DNA of 8,734 nucleotides, taken from assembly GCA_016764835.1 (NCBI GenBank), contig JAESRD010000324.1, forward strand, positions 1 to 8,734, in the 5' to 3' direction. Positions within the stretch are counted from its first letter, which is position 1; every line of letters starts with the position of its first letter. Positions 2,183-8,734 of this stretch are shown piece after piece. A program made the translations under genes and the position numbers. The notes under the pieces are model-generated. The model did not search any database and had not been told where the DNA came from. It worked only from the letters and a program-made list of their open reading frames with translations. The DNA comes from Paracoccaceae bacterium (GTDB lineage: Bacteria; Pseudomonadota; Alphaproteobacteria; Rhodobacterales; Rhodobacteraceae).

Positions 2183-2321
2183 GTGGCACTCCTGCATCAT
2201 ATTTGTGGCAGAGCCCGGTTCGCGGCCAATTCACTTGAGTGTGCACCGGCTTCAGCGCAAAGACAGTGTCAATGCTAGATGGACTGGCATTCAAGAGAAT
2301 GCACAAACCCGAGGGAACATC

Positions 2322-3389
2322 ATGAAAACTATCCTCCTCGCTTCCGTATCCGCTTTCGCCTTTGCTGGTGCAGCTGCTGCCGAAGTTAACCTTAGTGGCG
2401 ACGCCACATTGGGCTACAACGACAATTCCGGCTCTTACTGGGATGCTACAGTTGCTGTAGGTTTCTCCCAAGAGCTTGATAACGGCCTGACTTTCGCTGG
2501 CTCGATCAACTTTGACATCGTAGACGGCAACCAAGGCTTCATCGTTGGCGCGTCCGACTATGAAATCTCGCTGACTACAGACACAGCTGGCCTGTATTTT
2601 GGTGACATCGACACAGCAACAGACGTTGCTTTCTCGACACCAGACGGCATGTCCGTTGGCCTGTCCGATGATTTTTCTTACTACGTTCCAAATGCTGATC
2701 CACTATTGGCGGGCACTTGGAACGATGCTGACGCTGGCATCCGTGGCGAAGTGACATTTGGTGGCGTTAGCGCTTACCTGTCATACGGCGTAAACAACAA
2801 TGGCGACTTTACCGGTCTCCAGGTTGCTGCAACTGGCACATTCGGTCAGTTCGAAGTTGGCTTCGGCTACCAAGACGCAGACCACGAAGACGGTGAAATC
2901 TTCGGCGTATCCGCTGGCGCAATGTTCGCTGGTGCAGACATCGACCTCGCATACACCTCTTCCGATGCAGAAGACTCCATCGGTGTTGGCGTAAGCTACG
3001 GCTTCGGCGCAGTAACAGTTGGCGGCTACTATGCTTCTAACTCCGTATCCTTCGATGAAGCTGGCGTAGACGTTGCTTACTCCTCCGGCGCAATTTCGGT
3101 TGCTGCATACTTTGACATCGTAATCTCTGATGATGATGCCATTGAGAACGCATCAACCTTCGGCGTGGACGCATCCTATGATGTTGGCAACGGCCTTACA
3201 GTCCTAGTCGGCGCTGACTCTTCCGATGCAGGTGGCGATGACTACTACGTCGCTGCAACTTATGACCTTGGCGGTGGCGCTGAGATCCTCGTTTCCTACG
3301 GTGTTGACGATGACAACTCCGCTGACAACGAAATCGGAGATCCAGAGTACCTTGCAGGCGCAACTGTTGAAGTTTCGTTCTCCTTCTAA
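2322..3389 (+). CDS. Outer-membrane porin, Rhodobacter/Porin_4 type
   Basis: The 355-aa precursor is predicted to form a beta-barrel pore in the outer membrane for passive diffusion of small solutes. A signal peptide (MKTILLASVSAFAFAGAAAA) is followed by EVNLSGDATLGYNDNSG, typical of mature alphaproteobacterial porins. The body is a run of short amphipathic strands with alternating glycine and aromatic residues separated by Asp/Glu-rich loops. The chain ends in VEVSFSF, the terminal-Phe signal read by the BAM complex. The start at 2322 has GAGGGA 5 nt upstream and gives a clean signal peptide, whereas the longer frame from 2181 would bury it. Ala codons are mainly GCT/GCA, unlike the GCC-rich neighbours, a sign of high expression. 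The gene stands alone, with its own leader and a strong terminator. Solute selectivity cannot be read from the sequence, although the acidic loops might favour cations. Confidence 0.92.
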   Translation: MKTILLASVSAFAFAGAAAAEVNLSGDATLGYNDNSGSYWDATVAVGFSQELDNGLTFAGSINFDIVDGNQGFIVGASDYEISLTTDTAGLYFGDIDTATDVAFSTPDGMSVGLSDDFSYYVPNADPLLAGTWNDADAGIRGEVTFGGVSAYLSYGVNNNGDFTGLQVAATGTFGQFEVGFGYQDADHEDGEIFGVSAGAMFAGADIDLAYTSSDAEDSIGVGVSYGFGAVTVGGYYASNSVSFDEAGVDVAYSSGAISVAAYFDIVISDDDAIENASTFGVDASYDVGNGLTVLVGADSSDAGGDDYYVAATYDLGGGAEILVSYGVDDDNSADNEIGDPEYLAGATVEVSFSF

Positions 3390-4055: not shown

Positions 4056-4134
4056 GCGCTATCATCCTGCCCCGCACTGGATTATGAACCATAGCGACGC
4101 AGCCGCGCCGCCTAAACTGATGTCCGAGGATAAG

Positions 4135-6669
4135 ATGCCAAGCTATAATGCCGCCGAAATAGAGCCAAAATGGCAAGACATCTGGGACCAAGCCCAGACA
4201 TTTCGTGCCGCCGCCCCTGACGGCCGGCCCAAATATTATGTGCTAGAGATGTTCCCCTACCCGTCGGGTCGTATCCATATGGGCCATGTGCGCAACTATA
4301 CGATGGGCGATGTGGTTGCCCGCCATAAGCTGGCCACTGGCCATAATGTGCTGCACCCTATGGGCTGGGACGCGTTCGGCATGCCCGCTGAAAACGCCGC
4401 CATGAAAACCGGCGTGCACCCCAAAGCCTATACTTACGGCAATATCGAAGAGATGAAGACGCAGATGAAACCGCTGGGCTGGTCGCTCGACTGGTCTCGC
4501 GAATTTGCCACCTGCGACCCCGAATATTACGGCCAACAACAGTCCCTGTTCCTCGACTTTCTCAAAGCCGGGCTGGTTTACCGCAAAAACGCTGTGGTCA
4601 ATTGGGACCCTGTCGACATGACCGTGCTGGCCAATGAGCAAGTGATCGACGGTAAGGGCTGGCGCTCTGGCGCTGATGTCGAGCGGCGCGAGTTGACGCA
4701 ATGGTTCTTCAAAATATCCGACTATTCTGAAGAACTGCTGGCGGCAATCGACAGCCTCGACAACTGGCCCGCCAAGGTCAAACTGATGCAGGCCAACTGG
4801 ATCGGCAAATCGCGCGGGCTTGAATTCAGCTTCAAACGAGTGGATGGCAAGGGCGACATCACCGTCTACACCACCCGCCCCGACACGCTGAACGGCGCGT
4901 CATTTGTCGGCATCTCGCCCGACCACCCGATTGCTAAAGAGCTAGAGGCATCCTCGCCCGAGATTGCTGCGTTTTGTGCCGAATGTCGCAAAGGCGGCAC
5001 CACCGCCGCCGCGATAGAGACCGCCGAAAAGCTGGGCTATGATACCGGCATCCGGGTGCAACACCCGCTCGACTCCGGCCAAGAACTGCCGGTCTGGATC
5101 GCCAATTTCATCTTGATGGATTACGGCACAGGTGCAATATTTGCCTGCCCGGCTCATGACCAACGCGACCTCGATTTTTGCCGCAAATACGACCTGCCAG
5201 TGATCGACACATTCTTTGCCCTGGGCGACGGCACCCCCGTCACCGACAAAGCTTTCGTGCCGCAAAAGTCCGAAAAAGTCCGCTGGGTAAACCACTTTGC
5301 TGGGCTAACCGAGGCCACCGGCCAAGACGCTGTTGATACCACAATCGACTTCGCCGAAGCCGCTGGCTGGGGCAAGGCCACCACCAATTACCGCCTGCGC
5401 GACTGGGGCCTGTCGCGGCAGCGCTATTGGGGCTGCCCAATCCCAGTTGTCCATTGCCCTATCTGCGGCGTCGTCCCCGAAGCCAAGGAAAACCTGCCCA
5501 TCATCCTGCCCGATGATGTCAGTTTTGACATTCCCGGTAACCCGCTCGACCGCCACCCAACATGGCGCAATTGCAGCTGCCCGACTTGTGGTGCCGATGC
5601 CCAGCGCGAAACCGATACGATGGACACTTTCGTCGATAGCTCATGGTATTTTGCCCGCTTCACAGCGCCAAATGCCGCAACGCCAATCGACACCGAAGCC
5701 GCCGCCTATTGGATGAATGTCGACCAATATATTGGCGGCGTTGAGCATGCTATTTTGCACCTGCTCTATAGCCGCTTCTTTGCCCGCGCTATGCATATCA
5801 CCGGTCACCTGCCCAAGAGCGCGACCGAGCCATTTGACGCGCTGTTCACCCAAGGCATGGTCACCCACGCCATTTTCCAGACCAGCGATGCCAAGGGAAA
5901 ACCGGTCTATCACTACCCCGAAGAGGTCACAGATGGCCGCTTGGCCGATGGCACTGAAGTTGAGGTTATTCCCTCGGCAAAGATGTCCAAATCCAAGAAC
6001 AACGTGGTCGACCCGGCCAGTATCGTTGCCGCCTACGGTGCCGACACGGCGCGCTGGTTTGTGCTGTCAGACAGTCCGCCCGAGCGCGATGTTGAATGGA
6101 CAGCCTCAGGCGCTGAGGCCGCACACAAACACCTCGCCCGTGTCTGGCGCATTGTCACCGAGATCGGCACAGCCGAAGCAGGCTCGCAATCGGGCGACGA
6201 AGACCTGCGCCGCGCCACCCACCGCGCCATTGCCGATATCAGCAGCGCGATTGACAGCTTTGGTTTCAATGCCGCAATCGCCAAGCTTTATGGCCTAACC
6301 AGCACGCTGCAAAAGGCCAATGCCTCACGCGTCGCCAAGACCGAAACGGCGCTGATCCTCGCTCAGCTCATGGCCCCGATGACCCCGCATATCGCCGAGG
6401 AAATATGGGAGCGCTTGGGCGGCGAAGGTCTGATCGCCACCGCCCCTTGGCCCGTCGCAGACGAAGCCCTTCTGGTTGAAGACACAGTGACCATGCCAGT
6501 GCAGATTAACGGCAAGCGCCGCACTGAGCTGTCGGTGCCAAAGGACATGTCCAAAGCCGATATAGAGGTGCTGGTGCTGGCCAATGAGATTGTGCAGCGC
6601 AACCTAAACGGGGCCGCGCCGAAGAAGCTGATTATCGTGCCGGGGCGTATTATCAATGTCGTGGTTTAA
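4135..6669 (+). CDS. leuS: Leucine-tRNA ligase (leucyl-tRNA synthetase)
   Basis: LeuRS is a class I aminoacyl-tRNA synthetase that attaches leucine to tRNA-Leu in the cytoplasm and hydrolyses mischarged products. In residues counted from 4135: the opening [14 protein letters not shown]-type HMGH at 48-51 within [15 protein letters not shown], the CP1 editing domain with [10 protein letters not shown] and HDQRD (341-345), [16 protein letters not shown], a zinc module with CPIC (441/444) and CPTC (482/485), [15 protein letters not shown] at 616-620, the anticodon-binding helical domain and the C-terminal domain ending INVVV. All functional motifs are intact and 844 aa is a normal length. The start is uncertain: ATG 4135 has GAGGA 4 nt upstream and gives the usual N-terminus, while an in-frame ATG at 4084 would add 17 non-conserved residues with a weak ribosome site. 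The last 14 nt overlap lptE, and the 3' end is copied in a tandem repeat. Confidence 0.97.
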
Positions 6670-7216
6670 CCGCGCCACACCAAAGTCGTGGTTTAACCAC
6701 GCCACACCAACCACGCGGTCTAACCGCCTAACGCGACGGCTCTTCGCCGCCGGCCTGCTCAGCCTCGCCGCCGGCTGCGGCTTCGTGCCGCTCTATCATG
6801 CGGGCGGCACAGGCACCGCTTTGTCTGGCCAAGTGTTAATAACCACGCCCGAAACCATCGAAGGCTACCACCTGCGCGCCAGCCTGCTGACCCGGCTCGG
6901 CCCCGGCGAGAGCGGCGCATACAGGCTCAATTCCAGCTTTGAAATTGCCGAGCGCACCGCCGCGATCGGCAATGACGGCGCGGTCATCCGCTATACGCTA
7001 ACCGGCACAGCCAATTGGCGTTTTCTGGGCCGCACAGGGGCTCAGATATCCTCCGGCACAGCCAGCAACTTTGTTAGCTATTCGGTCAGCGGCACAACTG
7101 TCGCCACCCGTACCGCGCGCGATGATGCGACCCGCAGATTGGCTCAGCTTTTGGCCGACCTCATCGCCGCCCAACTTTTGGCGCTACCGCCCGATCTGGT
7201 AACTGGTGCTCTATGA
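6656..7216 (+). CDS. lptE: LPS assembly lipoprotein LptE
   Basis: LptE is an outer-membrane lipoprotein that plugs the LptD barrel and helps deliver lipopolysaccharide to the cell surface. The 186-aa product has the lipobox LAAGC (Cys41) followed by GFVPLYH, the CGFxPLY hallmark of alphaproteobacterial LptE. The remainder is a beta-rich domain with [12 protein letters not shown], a [11 protein letters not shown] strand and a long helix of [20 protein letters not shown], as in the family. The region before the hydrophobic core is unusually long, because the first 20 residues are mostly a nonapeptide repeat ([18 protein letters not shown]) produced by a DNA duplication. TRRLFAA before the core also resembles a twin-arginine motif. 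The start at 6656 overlaps leuS by 14 nt, with GGGG about 13 nt upstream; no better in-frame ATG exists before the lipobox. The end overlaps holA (ATGA). Confidence 0.88.
6658..6711 (+). repeat. 27-nt tandem duplication across the leuS stop and lptE 5' end
   Basis: Bases 6658-6684 and 6685-6711 are consecutive 27-nt units; their first 26 bases differ at one position (G versus A). The unit begins with GTCGTGGTTTAACC, which in the leuS frame encodes Val-Val-Val-stop and in the lptE frame Ser-Trp-Phe-Asn. Being a multiple of three, it preserves the lptE frame and leaves the leuS product unchanged. A third, decayed unit may follow at 6712-6738, where GGTCTAACCGC resembles GGTTTAACCGC. Confidence 0.93.
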
Positions 7217-8235
7217 AACTCAGCGCGCGCGAAGCAAACAACTGGCTGCGCAAGCCCGACCCGGCCAGCGCCGGACTTTTGCTCTTTGGCGGCGACCCAA
7301 TGCGCGTCGCCTTGCGCCGTAAAGAAGTGATCACGGCGATGATCGGCCCGCAAGGCGAAGAGGAAATGCGCCTGACCCGGATGTCTGCCGCCCAGCTGCG
7401 CAAAGACCCAGCTTTGCTCGATGACGCGCTCAGAGCCCAGGGGTTTTTCCCCGGTCCGCGTGCCGTCTTGGTCGAAGATGCCACCGACGGCATGACCAAA
7501 CAGATCGGCGCGGCCTTGGTTGATTGGCGCCCCGGCGACGCGCAGATCATCGTCACCGCTGGCGCCCTCGCCGCCCGCTCATCTTTGCGCAAACTGTTTG
7601 AGGCCGCGCCAAACACCGTGTCGATTGCGCTCTACGATGATCCGCCCTCCGCCGAAGAACTGGCCGGGTTGCTCAACGGCGCTGGCCTGGCCAACCTTAG
7701 CGACGACGCCCGCACCGGCATGACCGACTTTTCGCGCAGCCTTGACCCCGGCGATCTGCGGCAATTCATTGAAAAACTGTCGCTCTACAAGCTGGGCGAC
7801 ACCAGCCCGCTCAGCGCCGATGATCTGACCGCCTGCGCCCCGCTCTCATCAGAGGCAGCAATGGATGAGCTGATTTTGGCAGTGGCTGGCGGCGCGCCAG
7901 ATAAAGTCGGGCCACTTACGGCGCGGTTAACGGCGCAAGGCACAACCCCGGTTAGCCTGTGTATTATGCTGACCCGGCACTTTCGCAGCCTGCATGTTTT
8001 GGCCAGCGGCTCTGGCGGCCCGGCCAACACGATTGGCCGCATGCGCCCGCCAATATGGGGGCCACGGCGGGATCAAATGATCCGCCAGGCTGGGCGTTGG
8101 GGCAGCCCACGGCTGGAGGTGGCTTTGCGGCTGCTCATTGATACAGATTTGAAACTGCGTTCGTCTGACCGCACGCCTGCTATGGCGCATATGGAACGGC
8201 ATATGATCCGGCTGGCAATGATGGCGGCGCGCTAA
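7213..8235 (+). CDS. holA: DNA polymerase III, delta subunit
   Basis: HolA is the clamp-loader wrench that opens the sliding beta clamp during replication, working with delta' and tau/gamma in the cytoplasm. The 340-aa length matches the family (E. coli about 343). The N-terminal AAA+-like module shows LLFGGDPMRVALRRKEVI, RMSAAQLRKDPALLDDALRAQGFF and the beta-strand segment GPRAVLVEDATD. The middle has RSSLRKLFE and a helical lid region. The C-terminal collar contains LRQFIEKLSLYKLGD, LSADDLTAC and LTRHFRSLHVLASG. As in other delta subunits there is no functional Walker A motif. The ATG overlaps the lptE stop in ATGA with a weak ribosome site, so translation is probably coupled. The gene closes the + strand operon. 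No + strand terminator with a T-run follows; the nearby hairpin serves the opposite strand. Confidence 0.93.
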   Translation: MKLSAREANNWLRKPDPASAGLLLFGGDPMRVALRRKEVITAMIGPQGEEEMRLTRMSAAQLRKDPALLDDALRAQGFFPGPRAVLVEDATDGMTKQIGAALVDWRPGDAQIIVTAGALAARSSLRKLFEAAPNTVSIALYDDPPSAEELAGLLNGAGLANLSDDARTGMTDFSRSLDPGDLRQFIEKLSLYKLGDTSPLSADDLTACAPLSSEAAMDELILAVAGGAPDKVGPLTARLTAQGTTPVSLCIMLTRHFRSLHVLASGSGGPANTIGRMRPPIWGPRRDQMIRQAGRWGSPRLEVALRLLIDTDLKLRSSDRTPAMAHMERHMIRLAMMAAR

Positions 8236-8250
8236 GACAACCGCCAAAAC

Positions 8251-8282
8251 GAAAAACGGCGAAACCCGTAAGGTTCCGCCGT
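8251..8282 (-). terminator. Rho-independent terminator of the small exported-protein gene
   Basis: Read on the minus strand, ACGGCGGAACC pairs with GGTTTCGCCGT around a TTACG loop, with 10 of 11 positions paired. TTTT and then CGTTTT follow the stem. It lies about 55 nt after the stop of the 74-aa gene. On the + strand the stem is not followed by a T-run, so it would at best act weakly on holA transcripts. Confidence 0.8.
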
Positions 8283-8288
8283 CTATTC

Positions 8289-8311
8289 GCATAGTGACCT
8301 GACCGCTATGC
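8289..8311 (-). repeat. Second hairpin in the 3' UTR of the small gene
   Basis: GCATAG (8289-8294) and CTATGC (8306-8311) form a 6-bp stem around an 11-nt loop, just upstream of the terminator as read on the minus strand. It has no T-run, so it may be an mRNA stability or processing element, or chance. Confidence 0.35.
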
Positions 8312-8335
8312 AGCCAAAGTCAAACTGAGATCAAA

Positions 8336-8560
8336 TTACTCAGCTGCTGTACCTTCGTCGGACTCGGAAGACGTTGCTGCAACAGCAACCAGAGCGGCCA
8401 GAAGTGCGGCTGGGATAACCCAAGCTGGAAGCGAGAAGCCGGAAGCCGTGTCGATTACGATGATTGGCTCAACGATTTCGTCAGCGAAACCGCCGGCGGA
8501 AACAGTGCCAGCAAATGTAGTTGCGATTGCGGCTGCGGCGATGATCTTTGTAAGGCTCAT
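8336..8560 (-). CDS. Small exported single-pass protein (copy 1 of a tandem pair)
   Basis: I do not recognise a named family; it recalls short unannotated exported proteins of Rhodobacterales. The 74-aa product has a signal peptide (residues 1-22, MSLTKIIAAAAIATTFAGTV then SA), a short mature head GGFADEIVEPIIVIDTAS, one hydrophobic segment from about 43 to 62 (LPAWVIPAALLAALVAVAA) and an acidic tail SSESDEGTAAE. It would lie in the inner membrane or envelope with a head rich in Pro, Ile, Val and acidic residues. There is no cysteine, so it is not a lipoprotein. The start at 8560 has GGAG (complement of 8568-8571) 7 nt upstream and gives the signal peptide; the longer frame from 8611 adds unlikely residues. 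Ala codons are mostly GCT/GCA, as in the porin, suggesting strong expression. It has its own terminator, and a near-identical second copy lies upstream. Function unknown. Confidence 0.82.
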   Translation of the reverse strand: MSLTKIIAAAAIATTFAGTVSAGGFADEIVEPIIVIDTASGFSLPAWVIPAALLAALVAVAATSSESDEGTAAE

Positions 8561-8683
8561 TTTAGAACTCCAGTTAAATTGGTAAATTTTCTTTTTCACG
8601 TTATTCACCAAGCCTCATGCGTGACTTGGTGAACATTTGGTCTGGGCTGGGCCAATATGAGGCGCCGGCCAAAGTCTTGGCGT
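8561..8683 (-). promoter_or_regulatory. Spacer and leader between the two small-gene copies
   Basis: This 123-nt gap holds a strong hairpin (8604-8633), an A-rich stretch on the minus strand (gaaaaagaaaattt) before the ribosome site of copy 1, and two direct TTGGCC words. No standard -35/-10 pair is convincing, so I cannot say whether copy 1 has its own promoter or is read through from copy 2. Confidence 0.45.
8604..8633. repeat. Perfect 9-bp stem-loop in the leader of copy 1
   Basis: TTCACCAAG (8604-8612) is the exact inverse of CTTGGTGAA (8625-8633) with a 12-nt loop; inside the loop TCA and TGA can pair further. No T-run follows on either strand. It could be a partial terminator for copy 2, an RNA processing site, a leader stabiliser for copy 1 or an operator. 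Confidence 0.6.
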
Positions 8684-8734
8684 TTAGCCGCCTGTGCCTT
8701 CGTCGGACTCGGAAGACGTAGCTGCAACAGCAAC
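8684..8734 (-). CDS. Small exported protein, copy 2 (only the 3' end in window)
   Basis: On the minus strand the last 51 bases read VAVAATSSESDEGTGG-stop, matching copy 1 residues 58-71 and then ending in GG rather than AAE. The DNA of 8693-8734 matches 8348-8389 at 40 of 42 positions, and both differences are synonymous (GCA/GCT and GGT/GGC). The signal peptide and head lie beyond the window. It is a tandem, same-strand paralogue placed 5' of copy 1. Confidence 0.85.
   Translation of the reverse strand, partial: VAVAATSSESDEGTGG

Follow-up and report, generated by a model that had tools for sequence, protein, structure and literature searches.

Tandem genes for small, probably exported proteins in Rhodobacteraceae and their possible link to YjbF-YjbH polysaccharide export

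Introduction

At the end of a stretch of Rhodobacteraceae DNA of 8,734 nucleotides (the whole of which is called the window here), two genes for small proteins stand in tandem on the minus strand, and they raise the question of what such proteins do and why one half of them should be kept the same while the other varies. An earlier note on this DNA had proposed an undescribed system, which we find too strong a description, as the context of the relatives points to a known, if poorly understood, system: YjbF-YjbH/Gfc export. GfcA is needed for an E. coli capsule by a mechanism that is unknown. Deletion of gfcA in EPEC is reported to abolish the capsule, which returns when the gene is supplied on a plasmid (PMC3853201), and loss of any gfc gene has been reported to disrupt the capsule buoyancy phenotype (PMC8592465). 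This 2021 study gives the functions of gfcABCD as unknown and offers, as speculation, that GfcA might be O-antigen-modified and directed to GfcD (PMC8592465), and a 2024 study describes GfcA and GfcD as entirely uncharacterised (PMC11494523). The yjbEFGH genes have been described as contributing to an exopolysaccharide that is not colanic acid (PMC8117528). The interest of the present locus lies in this open question of GfcA-type proteins, joined to a common helix that is specific to the genome; a large family in which tandem copies occur naturally, the variable parts can be separated from the fixed ones and some members are fused to a chaperone would make the question of the GfcA mechanism testable. 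Rhodobacteraceae, moreover, include laboratory-tractable marine strains.

Architecture of the Two Copies

Copy 1 is a complete gene of 74 amino acids on the minus strand (8336-8560, with its stop codon at 8336-8338), and its product is probably an exported protein with one helix after the signal peptide. The predicted signal peptide, residues 1-22 (8495-8560, minus strand), follows the A-x-A rule with the cut after SVSA and before GG, and the flanking residues A22 and G23 are invariant in the family alignment A5, which joins 72 of the 93 member references to 7 database proteins. An AlphaFold2 model of copy 1, built on a 79-sequence alignment, places helices at residues 3-21 and 48-68 with an uncertain linker between them; its pLDDT has a mean of 74.3 and stands at 88 over residues 41-50, 95 over 51-60 and 73 over 61-70. 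A polar acidic tail occupies residues 64-74 (8339-8371, minus strand). The three parts that had been described from the letters, namely a signal peptide (here a signal-peptide-like start), one hydrophobic segment and an acidic Ser/Glu tail, are all present in copy 1 by sequence and by model. After the signal peptide, mature copy 1 holds no Lys or Arg and eight Asp or Glu residues; 61 of 93 family members likewise lack Lys and Arg there, a count that omits the two of 95 members with at least 100 amino acids, both of them Peptidase_S74 (S74) fusions. By the positive-inside rule, a lone helix that is flanked by acidic residues and lacks basic ones would be an unusual inner-membrane anchor.

The window end cuts copy 2, of which the last 16 codons and the stop are visible (8684-8734, minus strand). 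A database search with the copy 1 protein returned itself and one more, P0002, a protein of 76 amino acids whose C-terminus is the visible C-terminus of copy 2; both are recorded with a longest contig of 43,948 bases, and P0002 is almost certainly the full copy 2 protein. As the earlier note had it, the two copies lie on the same strand 123 nt apart (the gap is 8561-8683), share 42 bases, or 14 codons, with two synonymous changes (GCA/GCT and GGT/GGC), and diverge in their last residues (AAE versus GG); a 43-nt direct repeat between them, 95% identical and in the same frame, is beyond chance. The description of the genes as near-identical has to be given up: copy 1 and P0002 align at 64% identity overall, with 16 of 40 residues identical across signal peptide and linker, against 31 of 31 in the C-terminal part. 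This identical segment (residues 41-71 of copy 1; 8348-8440, minus strand) contains helix 48-68, the second of the two, and reaches into the acidic tail. Given this contrast, copies 1 and 2 are, as aligned, paralogues in which one half is fixed and the other varies. Two doubts attached to the pair, that the upstream copy might lack a start or signal peptide and that it might be an assembly artefact, fare poorly as well, for P0002 has a start of its own and opens in the manner of a signal peptide, and the divergence of its N-terminal half speaks against an artefact.

Distribution of the Family

That the product belongs to no family that could be named has been borne out. Scanned against Pfam and NCBIfam, copy 1 gave no family (its single Pfam match fell far under the cut-off), and neither did 79 members, whose best E-values were 0.014 and 0.011; weak matches to TrbC/VirB2 pilin models occurred in 5 of the 79 (best E 0.019). 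PHROGs gave no family for the small protein, PADLOC returned no match for the four members tested, and relatives were found neither by scanning genome contigs and viral contigs with single sequences nor by tblastn against plasmids and phages. A motif regular expression run over loci with leucyl-tRNA synthetase (LeuRS loci) matched nothing because the motif was too near the window type; looser patterns and a profile found members in the same LeuRS loci that the expression had missed.

Profiles carried the search further. A two-sequence profile recovered P0003 to P0005 as strong relatives and, with E-values between 0.008 and 0.13, P0006 to P0008 as weak ones; the weak three were taken into an eight-sequence profile, A2, from which P0009 (E 6.0) and P0010 (E 7.5) were left out. 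At E 0.01, with at most 30 candidates scored per genome and individual members being those among the matches listed, A2 has matches in 165 of 198 sampled Rhodobacteraceae genomes, all belonging to the same family as G001, the genome that contains locus L001. The A5 profile, at the stricter E of 1e-4, matches 4 of 190 class-wide genomes, including G001 and G063, which argues that it does not pick up just any signal peptide. The small-protein family is therefore widespread in Rhodobacteraceae and not a private oddity of one genome. Among the matches listed in a search of open-access texts, no title or beginning of an abstract concerned this small-protein family in Rhodobacteraceae.

Arrays of 2 to 6 copies stand at 19 of 40 loci fetched, these loci having been picked partly for having several matches, and with up to 6 copies at one place in relatives the suggestion that the window's array may be longer gains support. 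Small size, tandem arrays and variable N-terminal parts are also what small secreted bacteriocin-like or signalling peptides would present, and one of the 79 members has a hit to a class IIb bacteriocin model, although below threshold (E 0.19). Against this stand the presence of the family in so large a share of the genomes, the fusion of some members to S74 and the empty PADLOC result for the members tested, and we consider such peptides a very improbable explanation.

Sameness of the Shared Segment

The earlier note had ascribed the likeness of the copies to recent duplication or gene conversion under protein-level selection. Local DNA-level gene conversion or partial duplication would keep the C-terminal halves of the window pair alike with no common functional demand. 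In its favour, the two copies agree at every one of the 31 residues of the segment and at 12 of its 14 visible codons, as compared with 16 of 40 residues in the N part, and some arrays have a high codon identity in the segment (20 of 21 in L020, 22 of 22 in L153). Across 46 within-array pairs of relatives, however, the N part has a residue identity of 0.79 and the segment one of 0.89, whereas the fraction of unchanged codons at identical residues is 0.67 in both, and this equality means that the segment has no general excess of DNA identity. At p = 0.11, the 12 of 14 codons of the window pair cannot be told apart from that average of 0.67.

Copies at separate loci of one genome likewise speak against conversion as the general account. 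Forty-one such pairs from 17 genomes, which are not independent of one another, have identities of 0.56 in the N part and 0.77 in the segment, the latter with 0.57 unchanged codons, as compared with 0.48, 0.45 and 0.43 respectively for 4,186 between-genome pairs. When N-part identity is matched, segment identity is 0.77 within genomes versus 0.49, and 34 of the 41 pairs lie above the matched mean. The best separate-locus pair reaches a segment identity of at least 0.77 in 11 of 17 genomes and stays under 0.77 in G191, G131, G054, G005, G141 and G077. On these residue and codon comparisons, paralogues in most, though not all, of the 17 genomes keep a common segment at the protein level, and the sameness of the segment looks to be mostly a protein-level one that extends to copies at other loci. 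What stands of the earlier account is the tandem paralogues and a sameness that looks to be held mostly in the protein; conversion as a general explanation is not supported. That local conversion or partial duplication, with no common functional demand, accounts for the window pair we regard as improbable, although local conversion may have acted there, and an older gene conversion followed by synonymous change may lie behind the common segment. A common partner, or paralogues that pack together, would explain it too.

Linkage to yjbF and yjbH

In the window, leuS, lptE and holA (4084-8235, plus strand) run convergent with the copies and mark the same site in relatives. Among 80 LeuRS loci holA is present in 78, with small genes after holA in 8. 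In 5 of these 8 loci yjbF adjoins the small genes, and in 4 of the 5 yjbH does so too, against no yjbF found in the 70 loci that have holA but lack small genes (Fisher p = 3e-6), 5 of which break off within 2.7 kb of holA. The yjbF model used for these loci was built from relatives at such loci and recovers yjbF in 70 of 70 loci found by Pfam. Six more leuS-/holA-linked loci, found via their small genes, have an adjacent yjbF in five cases (L131, L135, L136, L139 and L142) and none in L141. Taken together, yjbF is adjacent, often with yjbH, in 10 of 14 leuS/holA-linked loci with small genes and absent from that position in 4 (L002, L007, L018 and L141). Pfam names the representatives' YjbF and YjbH as gfcB and exopolysaccharide families. 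Loci with the window-like motif SLPxWVIPA, standing at the leuS/holA site or beside yjbF, have an adjacent YjbF confirmed by Pfam in L131, L136 and L138; two others, L132 and L137, lie in neither setting.

The association can also be approached from the side of yjbF. PF11102 (yjbF) was found in 115 of 198 genomes, and 70 loci were sampled as 70 of the best 75 PF11102 rows, the five omitted being second matches in genomes already sampled (two of them, G073:C3 and G140:C84, have small genes adjacent by coordinates). In 33 of the 70 loci a small open reading frame that shares the architecture stands no more than 700 bases from yjbF, by a filter written after candidates had been seen, versus 10 of 297 control places, chosen at random in L001 to L062 and unmatched for closeness to gene ends; in the other 37 sampled loci no small candidate lies within 700 bases. 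By profile alone, at E 0.05, members occur in 19 of the 70 loci, some beyond 700 bases. The candidates fall downstream of yjbF in 35 of 36 cases and on its strand in 26, and at least one, L240 (opposite strand, Val-rich), looks spurious. They range from the window type, through intermediates, to forms with Gly/Ala-rich segments and Thr-run tails that resemble E. coli YjbE and GfcA. In L215 (3416-4631, plus strand) yjbF has downstream of it a tandem of three small genes that are Thr-tailed and YjbE-like, so that tandem copies are not limited to the window type.

For the window's own genome we infer that yjbF and yjbH lie beyond 8734. Among 7,997 candidates scored, there was no YjbF protein on the 43,948-base contig.

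Other Neighbours

A second branch of the family, single or tandem and beginning MKKLAL, stands beside hemH (ferrochelatase) and a gene for a YkuD L,D-transpeptidase; its homology to the window type rests on the A2 profile and its iteration. When neighbours are clustered, the hemH-cluster protein is beside the small gene in 16 loci and the YkuD-cluster protein in 15, both clusters having been named via Pfam on one representative each. This branch is exemplified by L149 (5813-6391, minus strand), and L150, L151, L155 to L157, L159, L161, L164 and L165 are similar; a CAP-domain gene lies beyond the hemH and YkuD neighbours in L149 and in loci that cluster with it. Another neighbour of the small genes, on our reading of that neighbour's sequence, is lon. 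Small genes of this kind may be annotated as ferrochelatase; the neighbour of the one branch is hemH.

These neighbours favour a reading in which the small proteins form a general Rhodobacteraceae envelope family that co-assembles via the common helix and is not specially tied to polysaccharide export, yjbF being one of several neighbours. Genomes without a yjbF match keep the small-protein family (e.g., G018, G027, G029, G030 and G057, of unstated completeness), dispersed copies have the common segment, and S74 fusions occur both in arrays and elsewhere, all of which fit such a family; the enrichment beside yjbF and the Thr-tailed intermediates found there do not, and we hold this reading to be possible but doubtful.

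Likeness to GfcA and YjbE and a Proposed Role

E. coli GfcA and YjbE resemble the window proteins in having a signal peptide, a weakly hydrophobic Ala-rich segment and a polar tail, and in being short (80 and 101 amino acids for the K-12 GfcA/YjbE pair, 74 and 76 for the window copies). In E. coli they belong to gene clusters with gfcB/yjbF and gfcD/yjbH, and in the window's relatives yjbF is adjacent at 10 of the 14 leuS/holA-linked loci. There are also differences. The E. coli genes are the first of the gfcABCDE and yjbEFGH clusters, whereas the relatives' small gene is the last, after a yjbH-yjbF order; the tails are Ser/Glu in the window proteins and Thr-rich in GfcA/YjbE; and the window genes are tandem, unlike those of E. 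coli. The YjbE model, PF11106, was over its cut-off in none of 198 genomes and left the window protein unmatched, and in a control it gave E. coli YjbE 113.6 bits and E. coli GfcA no match at all, so that it is too narrow to exclude GfcA-like proteins. Comparison of A5 with E. coli YjbE and GfcA by hhalign produced no profile-profile match (probability 2.3, over 12 columns in the signal peptide). Because PF11106 is unmatched and the profile comparison fails, the window proteins are not filed here as members of GfcA/YjbE.

From the role of gfcA/yjbE and the yjbF/yjbH context we nonetheless read the window proteins as acting in the way of GfcA/YjbE, and we lean, if only slightly, to the reading that they are a GfcA/YjbE-type accessory of YjbF-YjbH (GfcB-GfcD-like) polysaccharide export. 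Each small protein would be exported through Sec and lose its signal peptide after A-x-A, leaving a flexible acidic linker; its one Ala-rich helix would then lie either in a membrane or along another helix, with an acidic Ser/Glu tail that remains polar. The helix, kept alike within most genomes examined, would most likely allow paralogues to pack together or to bind one common partner, for which YjbF or YjbH are candidates, and polysaccharide or other ligands would meet the linkers and tails, which vary. A bolder extension makes the hydrophobic helix, in a version specific to each of many Rhodobacteraceae genomes, an assembly tag of dispersed tiny exported proteins that co-assemble in the envelope and anchor or guide YjbF-YjbH export, some of them with a removable trimerising S74 chaperone; we think this unlikely, and were it true, GfcA-type proteins would have a mechanism, an oligomer built on the helix in which linkers and tails can be exchanged.

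A hydrophobic segment common to otherwise different exported proteins of one genome is also the mark of PEP-CTERM and GlyGly-CTERM sorting signals, which the family resembles in this respect. It differs from them in having no basic C-terminal cluster and no long passenger; in the S74 fusions the segment is internal, and no such model matched copy 1.

Peptidase_S74 Fusions

In six family members from six genomes (G020, G076, G153, G129, G088 and G191), a Peptidase_S74 domain (PF13884) follows the hydrophobic segment, whereas copy 1 lacks the domain and P0002, with only 76 amino acids, has the same end. The fusions lie at L129 5965, L152 5402 and L253 1498-1947 on the minus strand and at L254 1477-1914, L255 1501-1929 and L256 1465-1893 on the plus strand; PF13884 was present in all six scanned, all in bacterial genomes, and all six keep a Ser-Asp-x-Arg-Leu-Lys stretch. 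Matches in G009, G090 and G106 cover what reads as nearly the whole of an S74-type fusion. Compared by sequence with solved structures, the L256 fusion had none close (best E 0.048, with names unrelated to S74). S74 domains (the chaperone of endosialidase) bring their cargo into trimers and are afterwards released by self-cleavage. If the domain does so here, the mature fusion product would be much like a stand-alone small protein and would act as a trimer or larger assembly.

A separate observation concerns L259 (1492-1794, minus strand), where a 101-aa protein carries a Peptidase_S74 domain behind a short leader-like start, EKPAILRRDSLSTITQGGPS, and no signal peptide. We take this start to look like a lasso leader; NCBIfam had no match for it.

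Surroundings of the Pair

The spacer between the copies (8561-8683, minus strand) holds a hairpin at about 8602-8635, with a fold z-score of -3.3 and an inverted repeat at 8604-8633, and a ribosome-binding-like GGAG at 8568-8571, seven bases before the start of copy 1. Downstream of copy 1, before the convergent holA, lies a terminator-like hairpin (8254-8284, minus strand); terminator-like sites in 8200-8734 number 2 against 0.7 expected. In relatives, inverted repeats with arms of at least 8 bp occur in 19 of 31 gaps between tandem copies, a count made without a chance control, in addition to that of the window; L001, L002, L020, L130, L149 to L153, L159 and L221 are among the loci with such gaps. 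Several of these repeats start with runs of A and end with runs of T, like terminators, and copies may have their own transcripts. Elsewhere in the window an ordinary porin gene of the Porin_4 family (2319-3389, plus strand) stands between a DUF3576 gene and an Ala_racemase_N gene that we take to be YggS-like.
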